Source: an uncultured Bacteroidales bacterium | Lineage (GTDB): Bacteria; Bacteroidota; Bacteroidia; Bacteroidales; Muribaculaceae | Assembly (NCBI GenBank): GCA_902768435.1 | Contig: CACXLJ010000007.1 | Span: 1-64,000, forward strand | Direction of reading: 5' to 3' | Length of the DNA: 64,000 nt | In this document: piece after piece, positions 30,342 through 45,481 of the stretch | How the letters are laid out: each line of letters opens with the position of its first letter | Numbering within the stretch: position 1 is the stretch's first letter | Program-made: the position numbers and the translations under genes | Notes under the pieces: generated by a model | Seen by the model: the letters and a program-made list of their open reading frames with translations, nothing else | Database searches by the model: none | What the model was told of the DNA's origin: nothing

Positions 30342-32771
30342 TTAAGAACGATTCTTCTTGAACTTGTTGAGCAACGACTTGAACAAGCCAGGTTTCTCGT
30401 CGTCCTCCTTGCTGTAGCCGTAGCCGTAACCGTAGCCGTAGCCATAACCGTAGCCATAACCATAGCCATAACCATAGCCATAGCGTTTGTTGTTGACCTT
30501 CATGTCGTTGAGGAGAATTGACACATTCTTGATCTTGCCATCTTCGGACATGTGCTCAAGGTCGGACAGGAATCGGCGGTCGATTTTGCCGTCACGCATC
30601 ACATAGATGGTGAGGTCGACATGGCGGTTGATGATGGAAGCATCGGCGATAAGGCCATAAGGCACAGTGTCGAGCACGATATAATCGTAATGCTTGCGCA
30701 GTTCCTCGATTAGTCGGGCAAAGCGCTTTGACATGAGCAGATTGGTTGGGTTGGGAGGAATGGCACCCACGCACATGACATCGAGATTATCACTGATGTA
30801 TCCCTTGACTACCAGGCTCTCGATGTCGTCTTCCTTCCCTGAGAGGTAAGTGCTCACGCCACGGCCACTATTCTCGAGCTGCATGTACTCGGAGAAGCGG
30901 CCCTTGCGCAAGTCAAGGTCAACTGCAATGACCCGCTTTTCGGCATAGGCAAATGTGAGCGCGAGGTTGATGGCCACGAAACTCTTGCCCTCGCCCGCCA
31001 TGGTCGAGGTCATTTGCAGTACAATGCCTTCGCCTTCACGCTCGTGAACCACATAGTCGAGATTGTTGCGCACAATGCGCAGGGCCTCGGTTATGCGATC
31101 GTGGCCGTTCTCGGTGACAACGATTTCCTTGTCCTTCTGGTCGCCGCGTTTCTCGGGCAAGTCGCCAATGATGGGCAAGCCGCAGTTCTGCTCCACATCG
31201 CCGCGGGTGTGCACCATGGTATCGAGCGATTTAATCCAGTAAATGGCAAAGAGCACAAGTGCCGGCAACAACAGACCCAACAGCAGACCGGTGCTCATGA
31301 TTTTTGATGGCACGGGGGCAATTTGTCCAGTAGAGACGGCTTTCTCGATGACCTTGGCGTTGGGCTCGGTGATGGCGAGCTGCAGCGCATTCTCTTCACG
31401 CTTGTTGAGCAGGTAAAGATAGAGCTGTTCCTTGATTTGCTGCTGGCGAGTGACCTGTGTGAGAGCTTTCTCGTGCGATGGCACAGCCGTCATGCTGCTG
31501 GTGGCGCGTCCCTCTTGCGAACGGGCATTTGACACCTGCATGCGCAACGAGTTGAGGTAGGTGGTCAATGAGCTGATGATCGTGTTGCGCATCGATGACA
31601 GAGAATTGGTGAGTTCAATCATCACGGGATTCTCGGTGCTCGATGTGGCGGCAATCTTCTGATACTTGAGCATTGCCTCGTTATACTGTGCAATCTGGCT
31701 CTCGATACCCGTGTTGGCAATACCCGTGTTGCTGGGGATGAGTTCGTTGCCGCTCATGCGGCTCACATATTGCAGGATTTCGTTGGCCAGGCTGTATTGC
31801 ATATTGGCATTGTTGGCATTCTCGGCCATGCGCACGCCGGTGCTCGGGTCGCTGAACATGGTGGCATTCACCGAACCCACCTTGAGCTGGGCCACCTTGC
31901 TGTCGACACCGCTCAAGTCCTCGGCGATGGTCACGATACGGTCGGAAATGAATGCCTCGGTGCTGCGTGCCACGCGGTTCTTGTCGTTGATGGCATCCTG
32001 AATATAGACTGCGATGAGTGCATTGAGGATGTCGGTTGCCAGTCGGGGGTTGTCGCAGGTCATGGTGAGACGGAGCACATCGGTGTACTTCTCGGGCGAC
32101 TCGGCAGTGAGGTGTGCCTTGTAGGCCACAGCGGCGTCGTGAATGGTCTTCACCCTCACAATCACCTGGAAATCTTTGTGGTGATCGGTGAACTTCTGGG
32201 TCTTGGTGATGGCAATGGGGCCAAACGCCGTGTTCACCTTGTTGCCAAACTTCGCCTTAGTCCAGGGACCATCGTTGATTTTGAATTCCAGATTGTTGCC
32301 GCCCTTGGGCACCACAGTCATGGTGAAGGGTGTGGTGATTTCGCGAAGCGGAGTGATTTGCAGGGGCGATGTCTTGTAACTGTTCACATCGCGCAAATAC
32401 ACATGACCATAGTACTGGATGTTGAGTCCCAGCTGGTTCACCACCTCTTCCATGAGTTCGGTAGAGGTAATCTTGTAGATTTCATTGGGGATGAAATTGG
32501 AAGCCGGGGTTATGCCCAGGTCAGAAAACACCTGCGACTGGCTACCAGTTGACTTGCTGGTGCTGGTAGTGAGCAGGATGAGCGCCTGAGAGCGGTATTG
32601 CTGAATTTGCGACTTGCTGTAGAGATAAGCAAGCGAACCGCAAATGATGATGGAAATCACAAACCAATACCAATTACGGAGACACGCCATCAAGAACTCC
32701 TTAATCTGGACGCCAGTGTTTGAGTTTTTGCGCGTAGTTTTTTTCACGCCTTCTTCAATGATTTCTTGCAT
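30342..32771 (-). CDS. Wzc-like polysaccharide co-polymerase / tyrosine autokinase
   Basis: The protein has 809 residues. The N-terminal Wzz-type chain-length domain is bounded by helices near 30-55 and about 500-520 (GLLLGLLLPALVLFAIYW), with a long coiled coil between. The cytoplasmic BY-kinase domain has Walker A MAGEGKSFVAINLAL near 594, Walker A' VIAVDLDLRKG, and Walker B YDYIVLDTVPYG. The C-terminus carries about ten Gly-Tyr repeats, the autophosphorylation cluster, then SKEDDEKPG and a basic end. These proteins control capsule or exopolysaccharide length and export. No export or glycosyltransferase cluster is adjacent, so its partner locus is elsewhere. A Bacteroidota -7 box (32844-32851) precedes it. 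Confidence 0.92.
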   Translation of the reverse strand: MQEIIEEGVKKTTRKNSNTGVQIKEFLMACLRNWYWFVISIIICGSLAYLYSKSQIQQYRSQALILLTTSTSKSTGSQSQVFSDLGITPASNFIPNEIYKITSTELMEEVVNQLGLNIQYYGHVYLRDVNSYKTSPLQITPLREITTPFTMTVVPKGGNNLEFKINDGPWTKAKFGNKVNTAFGPIAITKTQKFTDHHKDFQVIVRVKTIHDAAVAYKAHLTAESPEKYTDVLRLTMTCDNPRLATDILNALIAVYIQDAINDKNRVARSTEAFISDRIVTIAEDLSGVDSKVAQLKVGSVNATMFSDPSTGVRMAENANNANMQYSLANEILQYVSRMSGNELIPSNTGIANTGIESQIAQYNEAMLKYQKIAATSSTENPVMIELTNSLSSMRNTIISSLTTYLNSLRMQVSNARSQEGRATSSMTAVPSHEKALTQVTRQQQIKEQLYLYLLNKREENALQLAITEPNAKVIEKAVSTGQIAPVPSKIMSTGLLLGLLLPALVLFAIYWIKSLDTMVHTRGDVEQNCGLPIIGDLPEKRGDQKDKEIVVTENGHDRITEALRIVRNNLDYVVHEREGEGIVLQMTSTMAGEGKSFVAINLALTFAYAEKRVIAVDLDLRKGRFSEYMQLENSGRGVSTYLSGKEDDIESLVVKGYISDNLDVMCVGAIPPNPTNLLMSKRFARLIEELRKHYDYIVLDTVPYGLIADASIINRHVDLTIYVMRDGKIDRRFLSDLEHMSEDGKIKNVSILLNDMKVNNKRYGYGYGYGYGYGYGYGYGYGYGYSKEDDEKPGLFKSLLNKFKKNRS
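30413..30485 (-). repeat. 6-bp coding repeat for the Gly-Tyr tail
   Basis: About ten tandem hexamers (GGCTAC, GGTTAC, GGCTAT, GGTTAT on the coding strand) encode the Gly-Tyr tail. Gain or loss of a unit would keep the reading frame and change the number of phosphorylatable tyrosines. Confidence 0.9.
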
Positions 32772-33254: not shown

Positions 33255-34562
33255 ATGACAAATTCAAACACAAAACCCGCTACCGGTAAGTTAGGTATTA
33301 TGGTAGTTGGACTCGGTGCCGTGAGCACAACCTTCATGACAGGCGTTATGATGACCCGCAAAGGGCTGACCAAGCCCGTAGGTTCGATGACACAATACGA
33401 CAAGATTCGTATTGGTCGCGGTGCCGACAAGAAGTATCTGCACTATAAAGACATTGTTCCTATTGCAGACTTGAACGATATTGAATTCGCTGCATGGGAT
33501 GTATTCCCCGTAAATGCCTATGAATCGGCCATGAGCGCAAATGTGCTGAAAGAGAAAGATATTGAACCCGTAAAAGACGAGCTGCTCAAGATTAAGCCCA
33601 TGAAGGCCGCTTTTGACAAGAACTATGCAAAGCGCCTTGACGGCGACAACATCATGCATGGCGCAACCCGTTGGGAAATGGTAGAAAACCTGCGTGCCGA
33701 CATCCGCAACTTCAAAAAGGAGAAAGGTGTTGACCGCGTTGTGGTTCTCTGGGCCGCTTCTACCGAAATCTATGTAGCTCCCGACATGAAGTATCATGGC
33801 ACAATCGAAGCCCTCGAGGCAGCCATGAAGGCCGACAACAAAGAACAGATTGCTCCCTCGATGTGCTATGCTTATGCAGCTCTGAAGGAGAACGCTCCCT
33901 TCATCATGGGTGCTCCTAACACCACCGTCGACATTCCCGCTATGTGGGATCTCGCCGAGGAGACTAAGGTGCCCATCGCAGGCAAGGACTTCAAAACAGG
34001 CCAAACACTGGTTAAGTCGGGCTTCGCTCCCATCATTGGCACCCGTTGCCTGGGTCTGAGCGGCTGGTTCTCGACCAACATTCTGGGTAACCGCGACGGT
34101 CTGGTGCTCGATGAGCCCGCCAACTTCCGCACCAAGGAGGTGAGCAAGCTGTCGACACTCGAGTCAATCCTCGTTGAGGAAGACCAACCCGACCTCTACA
34201 CCAACTACTTCCACAAAGTGCGCATCAACTACTATCCGCCTCGCGACGACAACAAGGAAGGCTGGGACAACATCGACATCTTCGGCTGGATGGGCTATCC
34301 CATGCAGATCAAGATCAACTTCCTGTGCCGCGACTCTATCCTTGCTGCTCCCTTGTGCCTTGACCTGTGTCTGCTCATCGACCTGGCTCACCGTGCCGGC
34401 CGTTATGGCACACAGCGCTTCTTGAGCTTCTTCCTCAAGAGCCCGATGCACGACTACACCAAGGACGAAGTTCCCGTGAACCACCTGTTCCAGCAGTATG
34501 TGATGCTGAAGAACGCGATTCGCGAAATGGGTGGCTACGAGGCCGACGAAGAAATCGACTAA
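33255..34562 (+). CDS. myo-inositol-1-phosphate synthase
   Basis: The protein has 435 residues. It converts glucose-6-phosphate to 1L-myo-inositol-1-phosphate with NAD, the committed step to inositol lipids. The NAD-binding fold begins with GIMVVGLGAVSTTFM near residue 14; the core includes VVLWAASTEIYV, SGFAPIIGTRCLGLSGWFS and KINFLCRDSILAAPLCLDL (catalytic lid). It is of the length seen in Bacteroidota and shorter than yeast Ino1. It is transcribed alone with a strong terminator (34593). The genes that could use its product lie about 8 kb away at 42880-46207. Confidence 0.93.
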   Translation: MTNSNTKPATGKLGIMVVGLGAVSTTFMTGVMMTRKGLTKPVGSMTQYDKIRIGRGADKKYLHYKDIVPIADLNDIEFAAWDVFPVNAYESAMSANVLKEKDIEPVKDELLKIKPMKAAFDKNYAKRLDGDNIMHGATRWEMVENLRADIRNFKKEKGVDRVVVLWAASTEIYVAPDMKYHGTIEALEAAMKADNKEQIAPSMCYAYAALKENAPFIMGAPNTTVDIPAMWDLAEETKVPIAGKDFKTGQTLVKSGFAPIIGTRCLGLSGWFSTNILGNRDGLVLDEPANFRTKEVSKLSTLESILVEEDQPDLYTNYFHKVRINYYPPRDDNKEGWDNIDIFGWMGYPMQIKINFLCRDSILAAPLCLDLCLLIDLAHRAGRYGTQRFLSFFLKSPMHDYTKDEVPVNHLFQQYVMLKNAIREMGGYEADEEID

Positions 34563-34627: not shown

Positions 34628-34864
34628 TGTCTATACCCAAAACGGAATCGGACTATATGATTAAGACAATCTTAATATAAGGTATGGGTTAAAAAACTTT
34701 TTCGAGTTATTAATTAAAAATTTGCACACCTTATCCTTAGTCCATTCTCCCGTCGTGACAGTCAAACAAAGCTGGGAGGCAAAACATCAAGAATATTCCC
34801 ACATTGCATGATTAGCCTTGAAGATGACAAAAACGTGACATTAAATTAATTGTAATCCATATAG

Positions 34865-34895
34865 TTGCTTCTGAAACTAAAAATGATTATCTTTG
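34865..34895 (+). promoter_or_regulatory. promoter of the kinase pair
   Basis: TTG (34865-34867), 20 bases, TATCTTTG (34888-34895), 22 bases before the ATG at 34918. Confidence 0.75.
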
Positions 34896-34917
34896 CATTC
34901 ATACTATAAAGTAGTTA

Positions 34918-36366
34918 ATGGAGGAATATTATTACAGTGGCAGTGGCTTTTATGACGAAGAAGATGCAAATATCAGTTCGGCGTTTACCGACGTTTCCGA
35001 ATTGCGTTGTTCGCATCCTGACCGTGTCCAATACATGGCCCGCCGTTATGGCCAATGGTGGACACTGACCGCTATTGCACCAACATGCGCCAATCACATT
35101 AAGGCCCAAGAGCAGTTACGATTGGAATACGCAAGATTGCTAACACTACATCACCCTCACATAACTCGCGTTGTGGCTATGGTAGATGTGCCGTGGCTTG
35201 ATGATGAATGCGTTGTCGAAGAGCATGTCGATGGGCAGACGCTTAGCCTGTTCATGCAGAGTAATCCAAGTGAAAAGAATCGTTACGAGGTTCTTTCTCA
35301 AATAGTTGACGCATTACATTATTGCCATAGCAAGGGAATAGCCCATGGCCATTTGTCGGCCGACTCTGTTCTTGTTACTCATCAGAGTGCACAGGCCAGA
35401 TTGGTAAATTTCGATTGTTGCGATGATTTTCAAGCCGATTTGCTCTCAATGGCTACGATCATCGACATTTTGCAATTACCAAAACTCAAACGAGTTGCAT
35501 CCGATTGTCGCAATGGCGCCATACGTACTGCCGATGCTCTGCAAAAAGCCATTGAGCACAAGACCAGACTTGGGAGACGATGGATAATACCCGTTGTCGT
35601 TACTGTGGTTACCGTGGCTCTGCTTGTTTCTTTCTGGGCTGGCTATCGGACAACATTTGTTGAATCGTCGTTGCCACCTGACTCGCTACAACTGAAAGGA
35701 TTGTACTTCAGCGACACAGTACGCCTATCCCAAGCCGATGGTTTGCAGCACTTTTATTCAACATTAACAGGTGCAAATATCTATTATTGCGATTGGCGTG
35801 GCGCACAAAGAACTGAGATTGCCGAGAGCGAGGCCGTAGATTTGGGACTCAGCGTGTTGTGGGCACCGTTCAATGTGGGATGTACTGATGCCGATGTCAA
35901 TCATGTGGGCGCCTATTACTTGTGGTGCGACACAACTCATGCAGGGGCATTTCATCAGTTGGACGAATACTGGCCTCAGAATCAACCAATGGCTGATATA
36001 ACAGGCACACGACACGACCCGGCTCGTCAACAGTGGGGAGGCGGCTGGCGCATGCCATCACATGATGAGTTTATAGAGCTACGCGACAAATGTGTATGGT
36101 CTTTGGTTAGATATCGGGGACTTCCGTTGGGTTATAAAGTGAAAGGAGCTAATGGAGCGAGCATATATCTTCCTCTTGCCGGTTATCGTCTCAAATACCG
36201 TGAACACCAGATAGGCGCCGTGGGACACTACTGGAGCAGCACTCCTGTAGATGGGATTGACCGGCAGTCTTATGCCATGAGTCTTGATACCACTCTTATA
36301 AATCCCAACGACACCGTTTCGCTGGAATATTCCTTGTCTATCCGTCCTGTCCTTGACCGTAAATAG
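34918..36366 (+). CDS. membrane pseudokinase with FISUMP ectodomain
   Basis: The protein has 482 residues. Residues 40-215 follow a Ser/Thr kinase fold: a C-helix-like region, a hinge near EEHVDGQTL, and HCHS-type helix E. The catalytic loop, however, reads HGHLSADSV (143-151) where HRDxKxxN is expected, and the DFG site reads NFD (164-166), so both catalytic Asp residues are missing. One transmembrane helix (222-243) follows. The outer part (306-482) starts with EAVDLGLSVLWAPFNVGC and is a FISUMP domain. It lies 6 bases before an intact kinase of the same design. I infer a regulatory or scaffold partner. Confidence 0.8.
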   Translation: MEEYYYSGSGFYDEEDANISSAFTDVSELRCSHPDRVQYMARRYGQWWTLTAIAPTCANHIKAQEQLRLEYARLLTLHHPHITRVVAMVDVPWLDDECVVEEHVDGQTLSLFMQSNPSEKNRYEVLSQIVDALHYCHSKGIAHGHLSADSVLVTHQSAQARLVNFDCCDDFQADLLSMATIIDILQLPKLKRVASDCRNGAIRTADALQKAIEHKTRLGRRWIIPVVVTVVTVALLVSFWAGYRTTFVESSLPPDSLQLKGLYFSDTVRLSQADGLQHFYSTLTGANIYYCDWRGAQRTEIAESEAVDLGLSVLWAPFNVGCTDADVNHVGAYYLWCDTTHAGAFHQLDEYWPQNQPMADITGTRHDPARQQWGGGWRMPSHDEFIELRDKCVWSLVRYRGLPLGYKVKGANGASIYLPLAGYRLKYREHQIGAVGHYWSSTPVDGIDRQSYAMSLDTTLINPNDTVSLEYSLSIRPVLDRK

Positions 36367-36372
36367 TGTAGC

Positions 36373-37875
36373 ATGGCACAGCACAAATTCGACACATTAA
36401 TTCCTGTTGACTGCCAGAGTCGCTACAACCTATTGTTGCGGGCAAAGCGTGATGGCCAATGGTGGATGCTAAAAGGGCTGAAGAAAGAGTATGCCAATGA
36501 TGCTGTGATGCTTGAATTGCTTCGCAAAGAATTTCAATTGGGCATGATGCTTCGGCATCAGGGAGTAGTGGCCTTCGTCTCGCTTGAGCAAGTGCCTGAA
36601 ATGGGTGGCACATTTATAGTCCAGGAATGGGTTGAAGGAGTTACCCTAAAGCAATGGCTTACTTCCAACCATAGCACTTCTGAGAAAGTAAATGTATTGC
36701 TGCAGTTATGCGACGTGTTGTCGTACTGCCATAGCATGAATGTTGTGCATCGCGATATCAAACCCAGCAACATCATGATTACACCCTCCCAGCAAGTAGT
36801 GCTAATTGATTTTGGATTGGCTTTAGCAGGCAACCAAGCCATATTTCGTGCTCCTGCCGGCACTAAGCAATACATGGCACCCGAACAGAGCGACGAAACC
36901 GTGGTAGTTGATGGTCGCGCCGACCTCTATGCCGTTGGCGGCATCATGCAGGACATGAAACTGCCGTGCCCCTACCGAGGAGTAATGCGCAGTCTGTTAG
37001 AACGCGATCCAAACCGACGTCCACCAAATGCCTTGGAACTACGCAAGACACTTATAGCTGAGAGCAGAAAGCGAGGTAAACTTGTGCGATGGATTTCTTT
37101 GATGACAATAGTGGGGCTATGCATCGTAGGAGCTTATCGGTTAGGGAGTAGTCCTTTAGGTTATCATTTGTTTGGTACTTCGAATTTTCTTTCACCAAAA
37201 TTGCCCGACTATTTGACGCGAGATACCGCAAATCACTGGGCAGCCGATACATCCCGATACATCACTCTGGTAAAAGGAGACAGCATACGTTATAGCGTGC
37301 CAAAGACTATGACGGAAATACCTGGTAAAATAGATGAACATGAAGCCGTTGATTTGGGACTTAGCGTATTGTGGGCTCCGTTCAATGTGGGATGCGACCG
37401 CTCCAATCTCTCTATGCCTGGCGGCTATTATGGATATGGTGAACCTTCGGGAGTAATCACTTCTGACAATCCTGCTAACATCAATATGTACTGGACCAGT
37501 TATCATGGTGACTATAGTGGAACTGAATACGATATAGCCCATGAACATTGGGGCGAACGATGGCGAACACCACGCAAGACAGAATTTGATGAACTCATAG
37601 CAGAGTGCCAGTGGACACTAGTAAAGCCTGCGTGTGGACCTGCCGGTTACCTTGTCATTGGCCCTAATGGCAATCGCATTTTTCTGCCAATGGCAGGATT
37701 TCGCTATGGGGGTGAATACTATGAGATAGGAACAATGGGGTTCTATTGGATGACTGTTCCTGAAGGTGGTGAGAACGAAAGTGGCGTAGCGCTACGCATT
37801 CAACCTGAAGGTTTGCAGATAATATCAACAATCGCCAATAATGGCTTCAGCGTGCGCCCAGTGCGTGATCGTTAA
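36373..37875 (+). CDS. membrane Ser/Thr kinase with FISUMP ectodomain
   Basis: The protein has 500 residues. The kinase domain (about 15-230) has candidate Lys at 34 (WMLKGL), HRDIKPSN (126-133), DFG (146-148), and the P+1 segment GTKQYMAPEQ; the glycine-rich loop is not canonical. One membrane helix lies at 240-258. The C-terminal part (about 324-500) is a FISUMP domain starting HEAVDLGLSVLWAPFNVGC, close to that of the neighbouring pseudokinase. The kinase half would be cytoplasmic and the FISUMP half periplasmic or exposed. It is co-transcribed with the pseudokinase and faces a convergent HTH-like gene 21 bases away. Substrates are unknown. Confidence 0.85.
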   Translation: MAQHKFDTLIPVDCQSRYNLLLRAKRDGQWWMLKGLKKEYANDAVMLELLRKEFQLGMMLRHQGVVAFVSLEQVPEMGGTFIVQEWVEGVTLKQWLTSNHSTSEKVNVLLQLCDVLSYCHSMNVVHRDIKPSNIMITPSQQVVLIDFGLALAGNQAIFRAPAGTKQYMAPEQSDETVVVDGRADLYAVGGIMQDMKLPCPYRGVMRSLLERDPNRRPPNALELRKTLIAESRKRGKLVRWISLMTIVGLCIVGAYRLGSSPLGYHLFGTSNFLSPKLPDYLTRDTANHWAADTSRYITLVKGDSIRYSVPKTMTEIPGKIDEHEAVDLGLSVLWAPFNVGCDRSNLSMPGGYYGYGEPSGVITSDNPANINMYWTSYHGDYSGTEYDIAHEHWGERWRTPRKTEFDELIAECQWTLVKPACGPAGYLVIGPNGNRIFLPMAGFRYGGEYYEIGTMGFYWMTVPEGGENESGVALRIQPEGLQIISTIANNGFSVRPVRDR

Positions 37876-37896
37876 AGCCCCAACAATCGATTCAGC

Positions 37897-38460
37897 TTAC
37901 AGTTTGCGTGCGGTGATACCTCCATGCTTGCCACAGACGTAAGTCAGCACTTGGTCGGCATTGGCATGCTCTAATTGTGTCAGCACAAGAGGTTCACCAT
38001 TGACCATTCCTGAACACGAAAAAGTGTCACCGACAGCTAATTTGCTGCGCTCGCTTGCGATTACTCGCATTCGTCCCTGCCCCAGATACTTAACCACAAT
38101 GCGCCGGCCTGGACGCCAACGTACTTCTACCTCATCACCTACTTTTAAAGTGCTTAATGCCACAACTTCGCCGAGTGAAAAATCGCTTGTGTCGGCTTCG
38201 GTTAGAGTTTCACAAAACTCTTGCCAGTCGCGGCATCCCACATAACGCGACAGCACATTGAGCGATGAGACATAAACAGTCTTATACCCTGGCACATATT
38301 CCCACAATCGTTTAATAGTACTAACCGATAATGAGCCGGCGCCTTCATTCTGCAGTCGCTCACCTAAACACATGAAGTCGTGGGGGCTGTTTAGCGTTTG
38401 GCCATAACGGTTTTCTACAGCATTCCGTAAAGCCTCGAGTTGATGTTGTGAAACTTCCAT
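37897..38460 (-). CDS. HTH-like Bacteroidota protein with C-terminal beta domain
   Basis: The protein has 187 residues from the ATG at 38460; an extension to 38514 would pass through the promoter-like sequence at 38482. The N-terminal half (about 1-85) resembles a helix-turn-helix module common in Bacteroidota (SVSTIKRLWEYVPGYKTVYV, then LNVLSRYVGCRDWQEFCE). The second half (about 98-187) is beta-rich (GDEVEVRWRPGRRIVVKYLG). I recall such proteins near FISUMP genes, which would make it a regulator of the kinase pair; this is inference. It converges on the active kinase gene. Confidence 0.6.
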   Translation of the reverse strand: MEVSQHQLEALRNAVENRYGQTLNSPHDFMCLGERLQNEGAGSLSVSTIKRLWEYVPGYKTVYVSSLNVLSRYVGCRDWQEFCETLTEADTSDFSLGEVVALSTLKVGDEVEVRWRPGRRIVVKYLGQGRMRVIASERSKLAVGDTFSCSGMVNGEPLVLTQLEHANADQVLTYVCGKHGGITARKL

Positions 38461-38481
38461 ATTTCTTAGCAAATAACTTTG

Positions 38482-38489
38482 CAAAATTA
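38482..38489 (-). promoter_or_regulatory. possible promoter of the HTH-like gene
   Basis: TAATTTTG on the minus strand, 22 bases before the ATG at 38460, with a TTG near 38512-38514 at a 22-base spacing. A plus-strand TAACTTTG (38474-38481) overlaps it, pointing away from the gene. Confidence 0.4.
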
Positions 38490-38691
38490 CATTACTTTTC
38501 CATATTCCTAACAATTTATAAAGTTCTTAAAGTATCTTTTTTGTGAAAAGAACCAAGAAGAACCAAAAATGGTGTTTCTCGTTTGCTAAATCCCACATAA
38601 TTTTGCACATAAGAAAACCAAGAGTAAGCAGATTTTGATTGAAGTAATCAAATTAAAAACCTAGCGTTGTAAAGGTTAATCGCTTAATTAT

Positions 38692-38838
38692 ATGGAAGAA
38701 AACAAAATGTTTAGCGATGATTCTGACATTCATAGATTTGAAATCAGTTTCAAGAATGTAAAAGCAGGATTGTCACCGACAATCCCTTTCCCTGAAAGGT
38801 TTAGCGCAAATTTTTCATTGAATAAGGAGACACTTTAA
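38692..38838 (+). CDS. small hypothetical protein, 48 aa
   Basis: An ATG at 38692 opens 48 codons ending with TAA at 38836-38838. The product begins MEENKMFSDDSDIHRFEIS and is acidic at the start. No membrane segment or known motif. It sits 28 bases before the next gene in the same direction and in equally AT-rich DNA, which favours a real leader gene of that operon, but codon evidence over this length is thin. Confidence 0.45.
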   Translation: MEENKMFSDDSDIHRFEISFKNVKAGLSPTIPFPERFSANFSLNKETL

Positions 38839-38866
38839 AATAATTTATTAATTAAATCTCATAATT

Positions 38867-39691
38867 ATGACTAAAGCATTAGAAGCCAAGATTAATGGCT
38901 ATATAACCAATCCAGGTGACCGGTTATTAGTGATACTGGATAATGATTCCGGTATTGCCCTAAATGCTGTGAAACAATGCTGCGAGGCAGCACGTTTAAA
39001 CCTGTATTTTGATGGCCACTATAGTTCAAATCTACCTGTTCCAAGTAGGAATAGCCCCAATTTAATGTATGCGGATGTTTTGCTGGTAAATTATATTGCA
39101 TTGCTTGCAGACCTCTCTGATTTTGATGGTGTTGTCGAAAAGACCCTTCAGTCAAAGGATACATACAAAAAAACCGTCATTATCATAGGCGGTTTCGATA
39201 TTCCAAAAGACAGCGTTTGGAAAGACAATGAGCGTTTAATAATATTAGACATAAATACATTTGATTTTTGGCTGAAATGGGCTAAGTCAAAAGACCAGCA
39301 TGATCGTTCCAATATACATCCATTAATTACCGATTTCCTTGAGCAACACCCTGAATGGTTAGAACCATGTCCAAAGAAAGGCCAATTAATCTTCGCGACA
39401 AAAAAAAAATGGAAGGATGTGTCAAATGATATTTATAAAATGGTTGAACGAAAATTGAGATATAAATATCCAGAAACATATAGAAATGCTAAAGGCCAAA
39501 TGTTGGATGATGAATCAAAGAAAATGTTACTAATGCAATTGAAAGATGGCAGGGTTCCAAATGGATGGCATAGTTTAGATCCTAATGATAAGGAAGATAT
39601 CAAGGATATAATTGCTATAGGTGCTGGAGTTGATACCGCCGATGCATTTATAGCGTTCTTGAGCACCATTTCTCCATTTTCCTTTCTGTAG
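38867..39691 (+). CDS. hypothetical protein, AT-rich, unknown function
   Basis: The protein has 274 residues and no signal peptide or membrane helix. Residues 20-150 alternate strands and helices (RLLVILDNDSG, DVLLVNYIALLADL, KTVIIIGGFDI, RLIILDINTFDFW), as in a Rossmann-like or degenerate P-loop fold, but no Walker A motif is present. The C-terminal 110 residues are Lys-rich and helical. Base composition is markedly AT-rich compared with flanking core genes. It follows the 48-aa frame and precedes two further unknown genes, so I regard the block as acquired. Confidence 0.65.
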   Translation: MTKALEAKINGYITNPGDRLLVILDNDSGIALNAVKQCCEAARLNLYFDGHYSSNLPVPSRNSPNLMYADVLLVNYIALLADLSDFDGVVEKTLQSKDTYKKTVIIIGGFDIPKDSVWKDNERLIILDINTFDFWLKWAKSKDQHDRSNIHPLITDFLEQHPEWLEPCPKKGQLIFATKKKWKDVSNDIYKMVERKLRYKYPETYRNAKGQMLDDESKKMLLMQLKDGRVPNGWHSLDPNDKEDIKDIIAIGAGVDTADAFIAFLSTISPFSFL

Positions 39692-39750
39692 ATGGGGATG
39701 GTGCTCGAAGGGTATCGCTGTTAAGTGTTAAGTAAAATAATTCATAGGTA

Positions 39751-40689
39751 ATGATGAAACTGAAACAACTGAAAGAAATCATTAATGGCATTGACGTGCC
39801 TATCGACCGCATTGCCGGCTTTTGCGACAACTATGATCAAATGTTCGACACCTGCTATGTTGAGGTGGAGTATGGCGAAATTGTCATCGACACCAGTTTT
39901 GGGCTTCAGGAAGATAGCCATTTCTATCCTGTGAGCAAAGCCATTGCCGACTTGCTTGCGTTGCCGAACGAGTGCGACGATTATCCCGTATTTAAATCGG
40001 GCCTGGATAGCCAAGTGGAGATTGAGATTCTGTATCGCCAAGTGAGAAGCGCCAAGGTTGTGCAATCGGCACAAGGCGCCGGCATTTGTCTGCTGGGCCG
40101 AGAGACACTGAAATTCATCGACGAGGAAGATGCTTTGTATAATTCTGCCGTTGCTTATCACGTGGAGATAATTATTGAAGACCCTAGGGCTCAGAAGCTG
40201 AATGAGAAGTTCGCGGACTTTCTTTATGACTGCAGCAAAATGTGCTGCGACGATATTCATTACGACGATAATACATGTAACATCTCCAATTATGGTGATG
40301 TCACTATTTTAGATTTCGTTGCCAACGAGGCCACAAGTGACAATCTCATTGCGCTGATTACAGGGGCCTTTGATGGCGTTTATTTTAGCCGCACACCACT
40401 CACGCGTGCCACCGAGGTCGAACGCCTGTGCAACGACAGTGCCGGCAAGTATTATGGTCCACTGCAAGCCGTGGTTTATCCCGCTTATGTCCCCGATAAA
40501 GATCTGCTCAATAACCCTCCATACTTGACCGAGATTGCCGACTCCACCTGCTATGCCAAGGAGTTTGCCACAACCGATGAAATGGAGCAATTCATCAGCG
40601 ATCACAACCCCGACGAGGCTGCAGGCGACCTGGTACGCCGCATCAACACCCGCTACATCGATGACCCACTCACCCTAATCCTCGAATAG
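39751..40689 (+). CDS. hypothetical acidic protein, unknown function
   Basis: The protein has 312 residues, no signal peptide and no membrane helix. It is strongly acidic, with several Cys residues clustered near 197-213 (YDCSKMCCDDIHYDDNTC). The N-terminal part mixes strands and helices; I recognise no family. Base composition is closer to the core genome than the genes on either side. It lies 59 bases after the previous gene and 81 before the next, in the same direction. Confidence 0.65.
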   Translation: MMKLKQLKEIINGIDVPIDRIAGFCDNYDQMFDTCYVEVEYGEIVIDTSFGLQEDSHFYPVSKAIADLLALPNECDDYPVFKSGLDSQVEIEILYRQVRSAKVVQSAQGAGICLLGRETLKFIDEEDALYNSAVAYHVEIIIEDPRAQKLNEKFADFLYDCSKMCCDDIHYDDNTCNISNYGDVTILDFVANEATSDNLIALITGAFDGVYFSRTPLTRATEVERLCNDSAGKYYGPLQAVVYPAYVPDKDLLNNPPYLTEIADSTCYAKEFATTDEMEQFISDHNPDEAAGDLVRRINTRYIDDPLTLILE

Positions 40690-40770
40690 GTTTTACATCA
40701 CGCAAAACACCAAAAAGAAACCGCCGAACCGCTTGAAAGGAAGTAAGCATTATTCAAAAAAAATAAAAAT

Positions 40771-41832
40771 ATGGCAACACCTGCACAAATTTCTAATGTA
40801 TTGATTGAGTTTAAAAAATGGCTGAGTATTAACGGCATTACTTCTGGTAGAAGTTACCAAAGTTTGTTAAGTAATTTTCCCAATAGGCTCACTAATCCAA
40901 CGAGCCCATATTCAAATTATCTTGATACAATTACAGATTGTCTATTAGCTGGACAGCCTGTTTACGCGATAGCGGTGTGTGATATAATGATAGATGCTTT
41001 GCAAGGGAATATAAACACAAAACCAAATAGCTATTTGCAAAATGCTAAATCTTCTCTTTATCGGTTTAGAGAATTCTTGCACCAGCGTCTCCTTTCCCTT
41101 ATACCTGCAGCACCATATCATGTTGCTACAGTACCGATGGTTCAAGGGGGTGCCAAGGCTAAACTTGGAGGGGTAATTAATGGGACAAATACTCTCATTG
41201 GAGCTTTAGGTAATGGTAAGATTAATTATTTTATTAAGTTAGCTATTGAGTCATCTTTATTCTTTAGTGTTGATATTGTTTCTGATCGGTATGCCAGCCT
41301 GTCTCAGATGCTTAGTAAAGGAGTAAATGTCCCTGCACGTTATACCAATGACAAAACTATTTGCTCAGCACCAGTGAAGGGGCAACCGGCAGTATATAAT
41401 ATTAACGGAATACCTTACAATGTGATTGTTGACAAAGATGGAAATGACTCTGTTAGGAAACTGATTAACTATTACACAGGATATACAGTATCTACAGGAC
41501 AATCATCTATTATAACTGGATATGTTATATCTCATGTTTGGGGACGAGCTTTTGATCCAAGACACTTTACCAATTTTTGGAATATTGTGCTTATTCCATC
41601 ATGGGCAAATCCAGTGATGGATACTCCAAACCCGCCCGCAGGCTCATATGCCTCAAGATTACAGAACACTATTATGGAAATCTGTAGACAACTATATAAT
41701 GGAACATCATGCCAAATTCCCCTTGTAGTAAACCAGAAAGATATTGTTCATGGTATTTACACAGTCCCTGTAATTAACCAAAAAGTCAACCAACCGCTTG
41801 GCGCTATTTTAAAAACAGGTGTAAAGATTTAA
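40771..41832 (+). CDS. hypothetical protein, possible HNH-like nuclease
   Basis: The protein has 353 residues and is AT-rich. The N-terminal 120 residues are helical (EFKKWLSINGITSGRSYQSL, then SYLDT-like spacing), followed by a Gly-rich linker near 125-150. Residues about 245-290 read YVISHVWGRAFDPRHFTNFW then NIVLIPSWANPV; the His plus later Asn/His spacing recalls an HNH-type beta-beta-alpha core, but I cannot prove metal ligands. No neighbouring partner gene supports toxin or restriction function. The call is tentative. Confidence 0.6.
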   Translation: MATPAQISNVLIEFKKWLSINGITSGRSYQSLLSNFPNRLTNPTSPYSNYLDTITDCLLAGQPVYAIAVCDIMIDALQGNINTKPNSYLQNAKSSLYRFREFLHQRLLSLIPAAPYHVATVPMVQGGAKAKLGGVINGTNTLIGALGNGKINYFIKLAIESSLFFSVDIVSDRYASLSQMLSKGVNVPARYTNDKTICSAPVKGQPAVYNINGIPYNVIVDKDGNDSVRKLINYYTGYTVSTGQSSIITGYVISHVWGRAFDPRHFTNFWNIVLIPSWANPVMDTPNPPAGSYASRLQNTIMEICRQLYNGTSCQIPLVVNQKDIVHGIYTVPVINQKVNQPLGAILKTGVKI

Positions 41833-42054: not shown

Positions 42055-42810
42055 TTACAGCGATTTGAGGGCCTCGGTGTGGAGGGCGAAGGCTTCGGCA
42101 GCGCCGCAGCGGCATTCCAAGCCACGGAACTTCTCCATGGGAATGTGCCAGTCGTCGAGCAACGGCTGCATGCCCTGACTCACATGGCACAGACATGCCT
42201 CGTGCTTGAGATCGACCACAGGATCAATGTTCACCCAATGCGTGGGCGTGAACATCTGTGACTGTGTGCCCGACATCGCCTCCATATAATAGAGTCGGAA
42301 TGTGCGCCCTACTCGTCGCCAGGCGTCAAGCACCAGCAGTCCACAAGCGGCATGGTCGCGGTGACTATCGATGGGCCAATGGGTGATGACCACATCGGGG
42401 CGCTCGCGTTCGAGCAGCTCGCGCATCTCCTTGTAGCGGGCCAGGTTCACCTCGGTGTTGCCATCGACCTGGTCCATGAAGATGTGGCGGATACCCATCA
42501 CACGGCAGGCATTATCGGACTCGACCACACGCACGGCAGCGGCCTGTTCGTGACTCATGCCCTCGATGCCGGCCTCACCGCGTGTGAGATACACGCTCAC
42601 CACTTCATTACCCGCTTGCTTGAGCAGACACATGGTGCCACCGGCACAGGTCTCGGGGTCGTCGGGGTGAGCACCGATAACCAATATTTTCCTCTTTCCA
42701 CCATAGGCTGCCGCATTGTCTTGCGCAGCCGCAGTGAGCGGTAATCCTCCTAGAATGGTTGCTGCCGCAGCGGCGCCAGCACCCTTCAGCATGTCTCGTC
42801 GTGTAATCAT
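42055..42810 (-). CDS. Tat-exported PIG-L/LmbE-family deacetylase
   Basis: The protein has 251 residues. The N-terminus MITRRDMLKGAGAAAAATIL has the twin-arginine motif and a hydrophobic stretch, so a folded, metal-loaded enzyme is probably exported. The zinc motifs are AHPDD near residue 48 and HWPIDSHRDH near 144. The family removes N-acetyl groups from sugars linked to inositol or lipids (for example GlcNAc-PI, mycothiol and bacillithiol precursors). It is 69 bases downstream of the probable inositol-lipid operon, which makes an inositol-linked amino sugar an attractive substrate, but this is inference; many PIG-L proteins act on other glycans. Confidence 0.85.
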   Translation of the reverse strand: MITRRDMLKGAGAAAAATILGGLPLTAAAQDNAAAYGGKRKILVIGAHPDDPETCAGGTMCLLKQAGNEVVSVYLTRGEAGIEGMSHEQAAAVRVVESDNACRVMGIRHIFMDQVDGNTEVNLARYKEMRELLERERPDVVITHWPIDSHRDHAACGLLVLDAWRRVGRTFRLYYMEAMSGTQSQMFTPTHWVNIDPVVDLKHEACLCHVSQGMQPLLDDWHIPMEKFRGLECRCGAAEAFALHTEALKSL

Positions 42811-42879
42811 AGGTCCTATATTAATTTAATGAATAGTATGCACAAAATGCAACGCAGCCTCAACACCAAACTGAGGGAA

Positions 42880-43605
42880 TCAGAGCAGCTGGGTGAGGGA
42901 GGTGAGACGGCAGGTATCGGCTGGGATGTCGATGGCATCGTTCTCGTCTTCGGTCCAGCCAGGGCCCTGCATCCAAGCAGTGGCACAGCCCAGCGAGTGC
43001 GCAGGCAGTATGTCCTTCTTGAGGCTATCGCCCACGACCAACACCTGGTCGGCAGGGAGTTCAAGTGCATCCACACCCAGGCGGAACAGCGTGGGATTGG
43101 GTTTGCGAATGCCCACCACGGCACTCTCGATGATGCCCTTGAAGAAATGGCGAATGCCCAGGTCACGCACCACCTCGTCGATGTTGCCATAGAAATTGCT
43201 CACCAGCATGAGCGGGAACTGCTTAGAGAGCGACTCGAGCACGGGCATAGCCTCGGCAATGCTCTCTTGTGCCTCGTGATAGCAATGCTGCGCAATGCTT
43301 TCGGCCCACTCGTCGAACTGCTGCTGTGTGGCCTGGGTCCAGCCCTTCTGAGCCACATATTGCAGTTCTATAACCATTTTCTTGTGCAGCAACTGCAGGA
43401 AGTTGTCGCTGGGCAGGATGTGGCGCACCTTGGCGAGTTCGCGCTCGGCAAAGACATAGGCCTCGCGAAACTGCTCGAGGGTGATGGGCACCTGCGCCTG
43501 CTGATAGCCGTCCCAAATGATCCAGCTCCAGTGCACGCCGCGGCTGTCGATAGTGCCTCCGTAATCGAAGATAATGCCCCGTATGTTATTGCTGATATTT
43601 CCCAT
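42880..43605 (-). CDS. HAD-family phosphatase
   Basis: The protein has 241 residues from the ATG at 43605; a TTG at 43623 would add six. HAD motif I is FDYGGTID (nucleophile Asp; the usual second Asp is Gly), motif II is LVSNFYGN (Ser), motif III has the Lys in VGIRKPNP, and motif IV is VVGDSLKKD. The cap is helical (about 25-110). The lost second Asp is seen in other HAD members but may alter proton transfer. The start overlaps the CDP-alcohol transferase stop by 20 bases, which suggests coupled translation. A phosphatidylinositol-phosphate or inositol-phosphate substrate is plausible from context only. Confidence 0.82.
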   Translation of the reverse strand: MGNISNNIRGIIFDYGGTIDSRGVHWSWIIWDGYQQAQVPITLEQFREAYVFAERELAKVRHILPSDNFLQLLHKKMVIELQYVAQKGWTQATQQQFDEWAESIAQHCYHEAQESIAEAMPVLESLSKQFPLMLVSNFYGNIDEVVRDLGIRHFFKGIIESAVVGIRKPNPTLFRLGVDALELPADQVLVVGDSLKKDILPAHSLGCATAWMQGPGWTEDENDAIDIPADTCRLTSLTQLL

Positions 43606-44563
43606 CCTGAAGTTGCTTGACAAAATTCTTGCAGAAACGCTCGTGCGTAATCATCATGTAGGCCATCATAGCGTTGAGCACCACCACCTCGAAGACGAAG
43701 TAGAGCCACGGTGCCTTGACGATGACCGAGATGAACATGGCAATGATGCGCGTGTTGAACGAGAGCATGTTGGTGTACTTCATGAGGGGCAGACTCTTTT
43801 GCCTGAAATCGTCGCGGAACTGCTGCGGTATTGCACTGCCAAAGCGCGACTTGAGTTCGCGGCGCAAGTTTTGCAACGAGGGTGTGAAGGCCTCTTGCTG
43901 ACGGGTGTAATTGCGATAGAAGGCCAGCGTGAGTTTCTTCATGAAGTTCTTGCTCCACGAGAGTTGCTTATACTGTTCGGTAATTTGTTCTGAACTGTCG
44001 AGTTCACTCCCCTCCTCGCCCTTGAGGAAGAAGAGGTGGAACTGGCGGTAGTAGTCGGCACTTGCCGCCTGCTTGGCATGGCACAGGCCCGCAAACACGG
44101 CGAGCGACCAAATCATCCAGTTGTGTCCGTGGCCGTAGCAGAAGTAGTCGCCCAAAATGCTGTCGCCAAACTGCAACTCGCGGAATACGAGCGAGAAATA
44201 GATGGCAAAGAACCACAGATCGCCGCTCAGGCCGTCGAGGATGCGCCCAATGCGCGAATACTGATGGGTGAGGCGGGCGAGCTGGCCGTCGGCACTGTCA
44301 TAGGTGTTGGCCCAGATAATCAGGAAAATGCCCAGATAGTTGAGCCAAATGTAAGGTTTTGCTCCAAAATAGAGCAAGATGCCGCCAGCCACGCCCAAGA
44401 AGATGGATGCGATGGTGACAGCGTTGGGCGTAATGCCCAGTTTCGAGAACAGTTTTGCCCACGCGAAGCCGAGGGGGCGATAGAACCACAGGTCGATGGT
44501 CTCCTCGGTGTCGAGCGATTTGAGCGACTGCTTATATTCGTTTCTTAAGTCTTTAATTGCCAT
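43586..44563 (-). CDS. CDP-alcohol phosphatidyltransferase (inositol-lipid type?)
   Basis: The protein has 325 residues and several membrane helices. The family motif is in DSADGQLAR (near residue 90) followed after eight residues by GRILDGLSGD; the last Asp is one position later than in the textbook D-G-A-R-G-D-D pattern, so the alignment there deserves a check. It has an extra N-terminal segment (1-50) and a cytoplasmic insertion near 180-240. The enzyme joins a CDP-activated head group or lipid to an alcohol. With a nucleotidyltransferase in the same operon and inositol-phosphate synthase nearby, phosphatidylinositol (or its phosphate) is the likely product. Confidence 0.82.
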   Translation of the reverse strand: MAIKDLRNEYKQSLKSLDTEETIDLWFYRPLGFAWAKLFSKLGITPNAVTIASIFLGVAGGILLYFGAKPYIWLNYLGIFLIIWANTYDSADGQLARLTHQYSRIGRILDGLSGDLWFFAIYFSLVFRELQFGDSILGDYFCYGHGHNWMIWSLAVFAGLCHAKQAASADYYRQFHLFFLKGEEGSELDSSEQITEQYKQLSWSKNFMKKLTLAFYRNYTRQQEAFTPSLQNLRRELKSRFGSAIPQQFRDDFRQKSLPLMKYTNMLSFNTRIIAMFISVIVKAPWLYFVFEVVVLNAMMAYMMITHERFCKNFVKQLQDGKYQQ

Positions 44564-44608
44564 ATTGCGATGGAATTCTGATGAAAATAAGGTAGAGTGT
44601 GTGTTTGA

Positions 44609-45481
44609 TTAAGCGTTGCTCTGACGCTCCTTGATGAGCGTGAGAATGCGCTTGGCAATGTGCGGCGCTGCCTCGACTCGGCAAGGTGCAAAGCTGGGCC
44701 AGTCGTTAAAGTCGATGATCTGAATCTGGCCTTCGGGCGAAATGATGCAGTCGCCGCCATAAATCTCAATGTTGAGTTCGTTGGCCGCCTGGTTGCAGAT
44801 GCTCTTCAACTCCTTGACATCAAACGAAATGCCCTGCGACTTGCCGTTCACTTCCTCCAGACCATACTTGCTATGACCCTGGTCGAAGGGATAGAACCAG
44901 AAGAAGAAATTGGTGCCTTTCACGCCATAGAACTTGACGAGGTCGCCCTCGAGATGCACATTGATCACAGCACGCTTGATGCCACGCAGGAAATACTCTT
45001 GCAGCACCTCCTGGGCCTCCTCGGGATGGCGCACATAGGACACATCTTCCTTGTGCATGGCGTGGAAGTCGCCGCGCTTGATCCAGCAACTCTTGAAGCC
45101 ACTCTTCTTGAGCATGCCCTTGATGTTCTCGTCGGTGTTGACAATGAGGCTCTCGGGATAAGGAATGCCGTTGCCCAGCAAGATGCGTGTCATGCGCTCG
45201 CGGGTGCAATTCTCGATGCCGTAGCCCGAGTTGATGACCAGGCGTCCGCTGTCTTCCAGTTTCTGCAGGTTGTCGATAGATTCCTGTTGGCGACACATGG
45301 TCATGATAAAATCTTCGTTGACGCCCTGCTTGTTAAACTGCTCTTCACTATAGATGTTGACGATGCACCCCCGCTTGCGAAGCTGCTCGGCGGTGGCGTT
45401 GAAAATTGCGGTGTCGTTTCCTATGTGGTTAGGCGAGTAGGCTCCCGCACGCATGATTCCAGCTATATTGATAACTGCCAT
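44609..45481 (-). CDS. ATP-grasp ligase of unknown substrate
   Basis: The protein has 290 residues and the layout of an ATP-grasp enzyme: an N-terminal Rossmann-like part (SPNHIGNDTAIFNATAEQL), a central ATP-binding part with SCWIKRGDFHAMHKED, and a C-terminal part with EIYGGDCIISPEG and IIDFNDWPSF supplying the metal-binding Asp and Asn. Such ligases couple a carboxylate to an amine through an acyl phosphate (RimK-like). No signal peptide. It sits between the nucleotidyltransferase and the CDP-alcohol transferase. Why a peptide-type ligase belongs there is unclear; one idea is aminoacylation of a head group (inference). Confidence 0.78.
   Translation of the reverse strand: MAVINIAGIMRAGAYSPNHIGNDTAIFNATAEQLRKRGCIVNIYSEEQFNKQGVNEDFIMTMCRQQESIDNLQKLEDSGRLVINSGYGIENCTRERMTRILLGNGIPYPESLIVNTDENIKGMLKKSGFKSCWIKRGDFHAMHKEDVSYVRHPEEAQEVLQEYFLRGIKRAVINVHLEGDLVKFYGVKGTNFFFWFYPFDQGHSKYGLEEVNGKSQGISFDVKELKSICNQAANELNIEIYGGDCIISPEGQIQIIDFNDWPSFAPCRVEAAPHIAKRILTLIKERQSNA

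Follow-up and report, generated by a model that had tools for sequence, protein, structure and literature searches.

The window, by which we mean the whole 64,000-nucleotide stretch of an uncultured Bacteroidales (Muribaculaceae) genome analysed here, encodes a tandem pair of membrane proteins, a pseudokinase (A) and a kinase with intact catalytic residues (B), which carry the same kind of C-terminal domain, are strictly paired across their genus and are linked to a third gene, R. Our preferred reading, for which we see about an even chance, is that of a two-chain receptor kinase in which A would regulate B and R would be the likely output.

Gene A (34918..36366, plus strand) is an open reading frame of 482 residues that is recognised by the Pfam Pkinase profile (6e-10). 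The original prediction had described it as lacking both catalytic aspartates, with HGH for HRD and NFD for DFG, and the alignment bears this out, placing HGH at 35344..35352 and NFD, together with the junction left by the missing activation segment, at 35407..35439 (both plus strand). Three further losses had not been noticed: the ATP-binding β-3 lysine is replaced by T51 (35068..35070, plus strand), the asparagine of the KxxN motif by serine, and some 28 residues between DFG and APE, the activation segment, are gone, so that the helix F region follows almost directly. As bacterial pseudokinases are defined by the loss of at least one of the VAIK lysine, the HRD aspartate and the DFG aspartate from a domain that remains recognisable, A is, judged from its sequence, a pseudokinase by several losses. 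Its N-terminal segment (YYYSGSGFYDEED...FTD; 34918..35007, plus strand) is common to most single kinases of the family and missing in B.

Only 6 bp downstream, on the same strand, follows gene B (36373..37875, plus strand), an open reading frame of 500 residues with a much stronger Pkinase match (4.9e-29). The ATP-binding lysine K34 (36472..36474), HRD (36748..36756) and an activation segment running from DFG to APE (36808..36885, all plus strand) are in place, and K34, E53, H126-R127-D128, K130, N133, D146, G148, E171 and D184 are invariant in all 16 B proteins aligned, the HRD and DFG of the original prediction among them. The best matches to solved structures include PknB and StkP, and B combines the Lys, Glu, HRD, Asn, DFG and APE elements, the single helix and the extracytoplasmic domain by which PknB-type receptor Ser/Thr kinases are recognised. 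The canonical glycine-rich loop GxGxxG is not found in B, which has DCQSRYNLLLRAKRDG at that place; the loop is atypical in the related single-kinase family as well. In view of this loop, we call B no more than a likely active kinase.

Each protein has one membrane helix, as had been proposed, placed by hydrophobicity and charge at about residues 223-241 in A (35584..35640, plus strand; five K/R before it, one after) and 237-255 in B (37081..37137, plus strand; six before, one after), with the positive charges on the N-terminal side in both. The domains that follow (A, 35815..36363; B, 37327..37872; both plus strand; profile matches and tree) had been placed "outside" as a sensor; in a Gram-negative topology, the C-terminal domains of A and B are instead predicted to lie in the periplasm and not outside the cell. 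They had also been called FISUMP domains, a label that holds as a distant kinship to Lcl_C and FISUMP, but no curated FISUMP cut-off is reached: PF09603 (FISUMP) has no match anywhere in the window genome, and TIGR02145 (FISUMP) matches B at E=0.1 and 13.3 bits against a cut-off of 41.65. Lcl_C (PF07603) scores 14.4 bits on A of the window against a curated cut-off of 34.9. At E ≤0.5, Lcl_C matches all 12 A and 11 of the 16 B proteins (best 3.7e-6), and relatives of A match Lcl_C down to 3.7e-6 and FISUMP down to 6e-4. Since no curated FISUMP cut-off is reached and relatives of A match both families, we term the domain FISUMP/Lcl_C-like. In both proteins it does start with the same sequence, EAVDLGLSVLWAPFNVGC, which at the DNA level corresponds to a 53-bp direct repeat of 91% identity (35830-35882 and 37342-37394). 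Fusion of a kinase to a domain of this kind is not unique to the A-B pair. Another genus has a 650-residue protein (L108, G250) in which a canonical GGFG kinase is followed by a related domain at the C-terminus.

Across the genus, A adjoins B in 15 of 101 genomes, and a sixteenth case is cut by a contig end. A is dead in 13 of these pairs (the window genome, G007, G008, G019, G026, G031, G035, G046, G051, G057, G070, G076 and G086; assembly Ns fall in the N-lobe of A in G007) and intact in two (G043 and G044, the latter with one in-frame stop); in G041, B is present and the contig runs out within A. No complete solo A or solo B was found in the 101 genomes, neither A nor full-length B was found in other genera among 397 genomes of the family (30 genera), and the B profile yielded no further full-length B from a sample of 393 genomes that spans the order. 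A occurs without B twice. In G049 the contig ends inside A, and this fragment is therefore not counted as a solo A; in G072, at a locus shared with G007, a deletion runs from the membrane region of A through B and R, and this scar of a deletion is the sole such case in which the contig continues. Co-occurrence is thus strict, and frequent occurrence of either gene alone, named beforehand as evidence against a joint function, is not what we see.

The trees and motif losses point to how the pair arose. In the kinase tree, all A proteins form one clade (98.2/99), within which the pseudokinases have the intact A of G043 and G044 as sister (84/89); B does not form a clean single clade, at weak support. 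In the tree of the C-terminal domains, those of A group with one another (91.2/94), and a larger group unites A with B to the exclusion of the other domains of this type that were examined (95.4/94). The simplest reading of these sequences is a duplication of the whole gene, kinase, membrane helix and sensor, followed by a single loss of catalysis in A. HRD, a DFG-like motif and APE are kept in all 24 single kinases, and A of the two deepest pairs retains HCD, DFG and APE; the HRD aspartate and the activation segment are lost in all 13 dead A; an intermediate clade (clade 2) keeps Lys, Asn and DFE, with HRD turned to HGN; and in the clade of the window the lysine and the DFG aspartate have gone too. 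Kinase activity in the first protein had also been named as counting against the proposal; it is very unlikely by sequence for A of the window, but A of the two deepest pairs still looks active. The N-terminal segment of A is found, by a loose pattern, in 21 of the 24 single kinases, and the one B protein of 16 that matches the pattern does so upstream of the start codon of its gene. With catalysis lost from A and the N-terminal segment lost from B, the pattern is complementary, as expected of two chains that work as one unit.

Comparison of close relatives indicates that the dead domain is being maintained. In seven close comparisons (Nei-Gojobori), dN/dS is 0.05-0.23 for the dead A domain and 0.08-0.18 for the kinase domain of B, the window-G008 pair contributing few substitutions; the dead A domain is under purifying selection and is not decaying. 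These values, the complementary losses and the strict co-retention in 13 dead-A genomes at several genomic sites argue against A and B being independent paralogous receptors that merely share an operon, with the dead domain anchoring the sensor or having some other activity. We hold that alternative to be quite improbable, even though tandem duplicates are common, the membrane-linker region of A evolves quickly in the window-G008 pair, and A of clade 2, which keeps Lys, Asn and DFE, might bind ATP. Obligate pairing, complementary losses and purifying selection thus support the two-chain unit of the original prediction, as distinct from the location given there for its sensor. In one operon (L044, G076), synonymous divergence from two relatives varies sharply from one domain of A and B to the next, as would be seen in a mosaic built by recombination.

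The third gene, R (37897..38514, minus strand; probable ATG start at 38460), had not been part of the original prediction. By eye, its N-terminal half looks helix-turn-helix-like (S.STLKRLWGY...TL..LARY.GYRDW) and its C-terminal half β-rich; the label "HTH-like" derives from this pattern, as no known DNA-binding family was recovered for 19 R proteins by significant Pfam, NCBIfam or PDB matches. With a set of R genes built from strong sense-strand matches, 65 of the 86 kinase-family matches in the genus have R at no more than 1.5 kb, and 77 have it at no more than 7.5 kb; R also adjoins most of the single kinases of the family. R and the kinase occur together in 50 of the 101 genomes, the kinase only in one and R only in six (Fisher p=7e-21, uncorrected for phylogeny). 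Two R genes, and no more, are present in the window genome, one by A-B and one by its single kinase. R is found within 7.5 kb of all 13 dead-A pairs, touching or at most ~0.6 kb away in the clade of the window and in G086, and 2.1-4.8 kb away in seven of the eight clade-2 genomes; the deletion that cut A in G072 took R along with B. Away from these kinases lie 42 of the 119 R matches, mostly weaker ones. Next to the three deepest loci (G041, G043 and G044) there is no R, and the G043 genome has none at all, so R is not indispensable. It is best read, from these patterns, as often partnering this kinase family and as having come to the A-B pair by inheritance, and the unit is probably A, B and R, derived from a common module of kinase and R. 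At G041 and G044, where no R is nearby, a gene that by eye resembles a Vsr-like endonuclease is convergent with B (L053, 8852-9484; L055, 2454-2987).

The surroundings of the unit differ between genomes. Over 34668-38625, the DNA of the A-B-R block in the window is 96.6% identical to that in G008, and the flanking genes differ. In the window it sits between a myo-inositol-phosphate synthase gene, which is inverted, and HAD and CDP-alcohol genes; in G035 the synthase directly adjoins the HAD and CDP-alcohol genes, without the block. As far as these sequences tell, A-B-R moves or is rearranged as a block. The segment shared with G008 also takes in the following gene of 274 residues (window 34668-39856 against L039/L040), at a non-homologous site; in G008 this gene is flanked by a 183-bp direct repeat (93%), which hints at a modular or mobile island. 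In the window, the island interrupts an apparent inositol-lipid cluster (33255-34562 and 42055-45481), whose synthase is inverted when compared with G035. A tie of the pair to inositol-lipid metabolism is unlikely and was rejected: the synthase is on a different contig from the pair in G057, G035, G007 and G046, and in G035 its adjacency to the HAD and CDP-alcohol genes is independent of the block. Three genes at 38867-41832 (274, 312 and 353 residues) have no Pfam, NCBIfam or PADLOC match, and several genomes carry relatives of the first two close to the pair. The PADLOC matches that were obtained (PD-T4-6, mad6 and PglW) are read as generic kinase similarity, and no defence assignment was made. 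On the other side, at 30342-32771 on the minus strand, lies a gene for a Wzc-like chain-length/tyrosine-kinase protein in which a long (YG)n repeat is found close to the C-terminus.

In the mechanism that we propose, A and B would both be anchored in the inner membrane, the kinase-like domain facing the cytoplasm and the FISUMP/Lcl_C-like domain projecting into the periplasm, where a ligand or a state of the envelope, sensed by both periplasmic domains, would alter the pairing of the chains. The dead domain of A would then control the activity of B, most likely by an N-lobe (back-to-back) contact as in PknB-type kinases; back-to-back dimers are formed by some canonical bacterial kinases and by the MviN pseudokinase domain (PMC12599244; PMC6180346). 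A would supply the N-terminal segment that B lost, B would be the only chain able to transfer phosphate, and the most likely output would be the nearby DNA-binding-like protein R. The contact between A and B, the direction of control, the role of R as substrate or output, and the ligand are the elements that we infer. Structure was modelled for the single chains from alignments of the window proteins with one relative, and the models of A and B were of low quality (mean pLDDT 38.0 and 35.7).

Two other roles for A deserve weighing against this mechanism. As a scaffold or substrate, A would be phosphorylated by B, for instance within the acidic, Ser/Tyr-rich segment at its N-terminus, and in that form would recruit R or another protein, leaving the activity of B unchanged. 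That A proteins have conserved the segment (YYYSGSGFYDEED / NSSSFFETEE) and B has lost it would fit, and there is a precedent in mycobacteria, where PknB phosphorylates the pseudokinase MviN, which thereupon binds FhaA (PMC12599244; PMC6180346). The same segment, however, is present in single active kinases and is hence not specific to a substrate, no gene for an FHA or other phospho-binding protein was seen at the locus, and a plain substrate would have no need of the complete second sensor domain that A keeps, so that we find this role rather doubtful. As an inhibitory or decoy chain, A would form A-B dimers that block productive B-B dimers, and with them trans-autophosphorylation, until a signal frees B. 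Lacking its activation segment, A cannot be trans-phosphorylated, parts of its N-lobe are kept, and the genetic evidence for a two-chain receptor serves this role equally, as it does not separate activation from inhibition; yet loss of a decoy should be better tolerated than the strict pairing suggests, and no complete B without A was found. We consider a decoy unlikely and retain the two-chain receptor in which A regulates B.

One genus thus holds A in an ancestor-like active, a half-degraded and a fully degraded state, each beside an active partner, and these three states make the transition from kinase to regulator directly testable with small soluble domains. The module of R and kinase also occurs in single-kinase form in the same family. 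If R is the output, the unit would link sensing in the periplasm to gene expression by a short path in Bacteroidales of the gut type.

Pseudokinases are already known from bacteria, among them membrane proteins whose activation loop is shortened, and have been described as a group that experiments have left largely unexplored (PMC12599244). The view that no system of this kind had been described in Bacteroidota agrees with our search of the open-licence literature, which gave nothing relevant on Bacteroidota pseudokinases or lectin-like kinases; nor did we find described there a tandem-duplicated, strictly paired kinase and pseudokinase with a shared sensor type, graded losses within one genus and a linked R. 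R, the deletion of the activation segment, the graded series of losses and the presence of the block at different genomic sites go beyond the original prediction. Among the known systems, MviN/MurJ (ActPs3) resembles A in being a membrane-protein pseudokinase with an activation-loop deletion and loss of all three motifs that acts with a receptor kinase (PMC12599244), but it is actinobacterial, is fused to a flippase, is not a tandem duplicate of its kinase and has no sensor in common with it. The features that define ActPs3, an activation-loop deletion with loss of the three motifs, are found in A, the deletion in all 13 dead A and the three-motif loss in the clade of the window only; A is not filed under ActPs3 because it groups with Bacteroidales kinases, in a tree that did not include MviN. 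EssB/YukC of type VII secretion is likewise a membrane pseudokinase of bacteria whose motifs are degraded and whose activation loop is shortened, but it is part of a secretion machine, and no kinase partner from the same duplication is described for it in that source (PMC12599244).

With PknB/StkP-type receptor Ser/Thr kinases the pair shares a cytoplasmic Hanks-type kinase, a single membrane helix and an extracytoplasmic sensor; the sensor there is of the PASTA type, whereas here it is FISUMP/Lcl_C-like, next to an atypical glycine loop, an obligate pseudokinase partner and the linked R.

In the JH2-JH1 arrangement of JAK, a eukaryotic tyrosine kinase, a pseudokinase lies beside a kinase in one chain, and HRD has become HGN, as in A of clade 2. 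A and B are two separate membrane chains of the Ser/Thr type, and the analogy would be one of working only. Tentatively, we put forward as possible a bolder version of our reading, an obligate two-chain receptor kinase with a dead tandem duplicate as its allosteric regulator and R as a dedicated DNA-binding output; if true, it would carry a transmembrane Ser/Thr phospho-signal to transcription in one step, with intermediate stages of loss persisting in related species, and would be a parallel to JAK JH2-JH1 that evolved independently.
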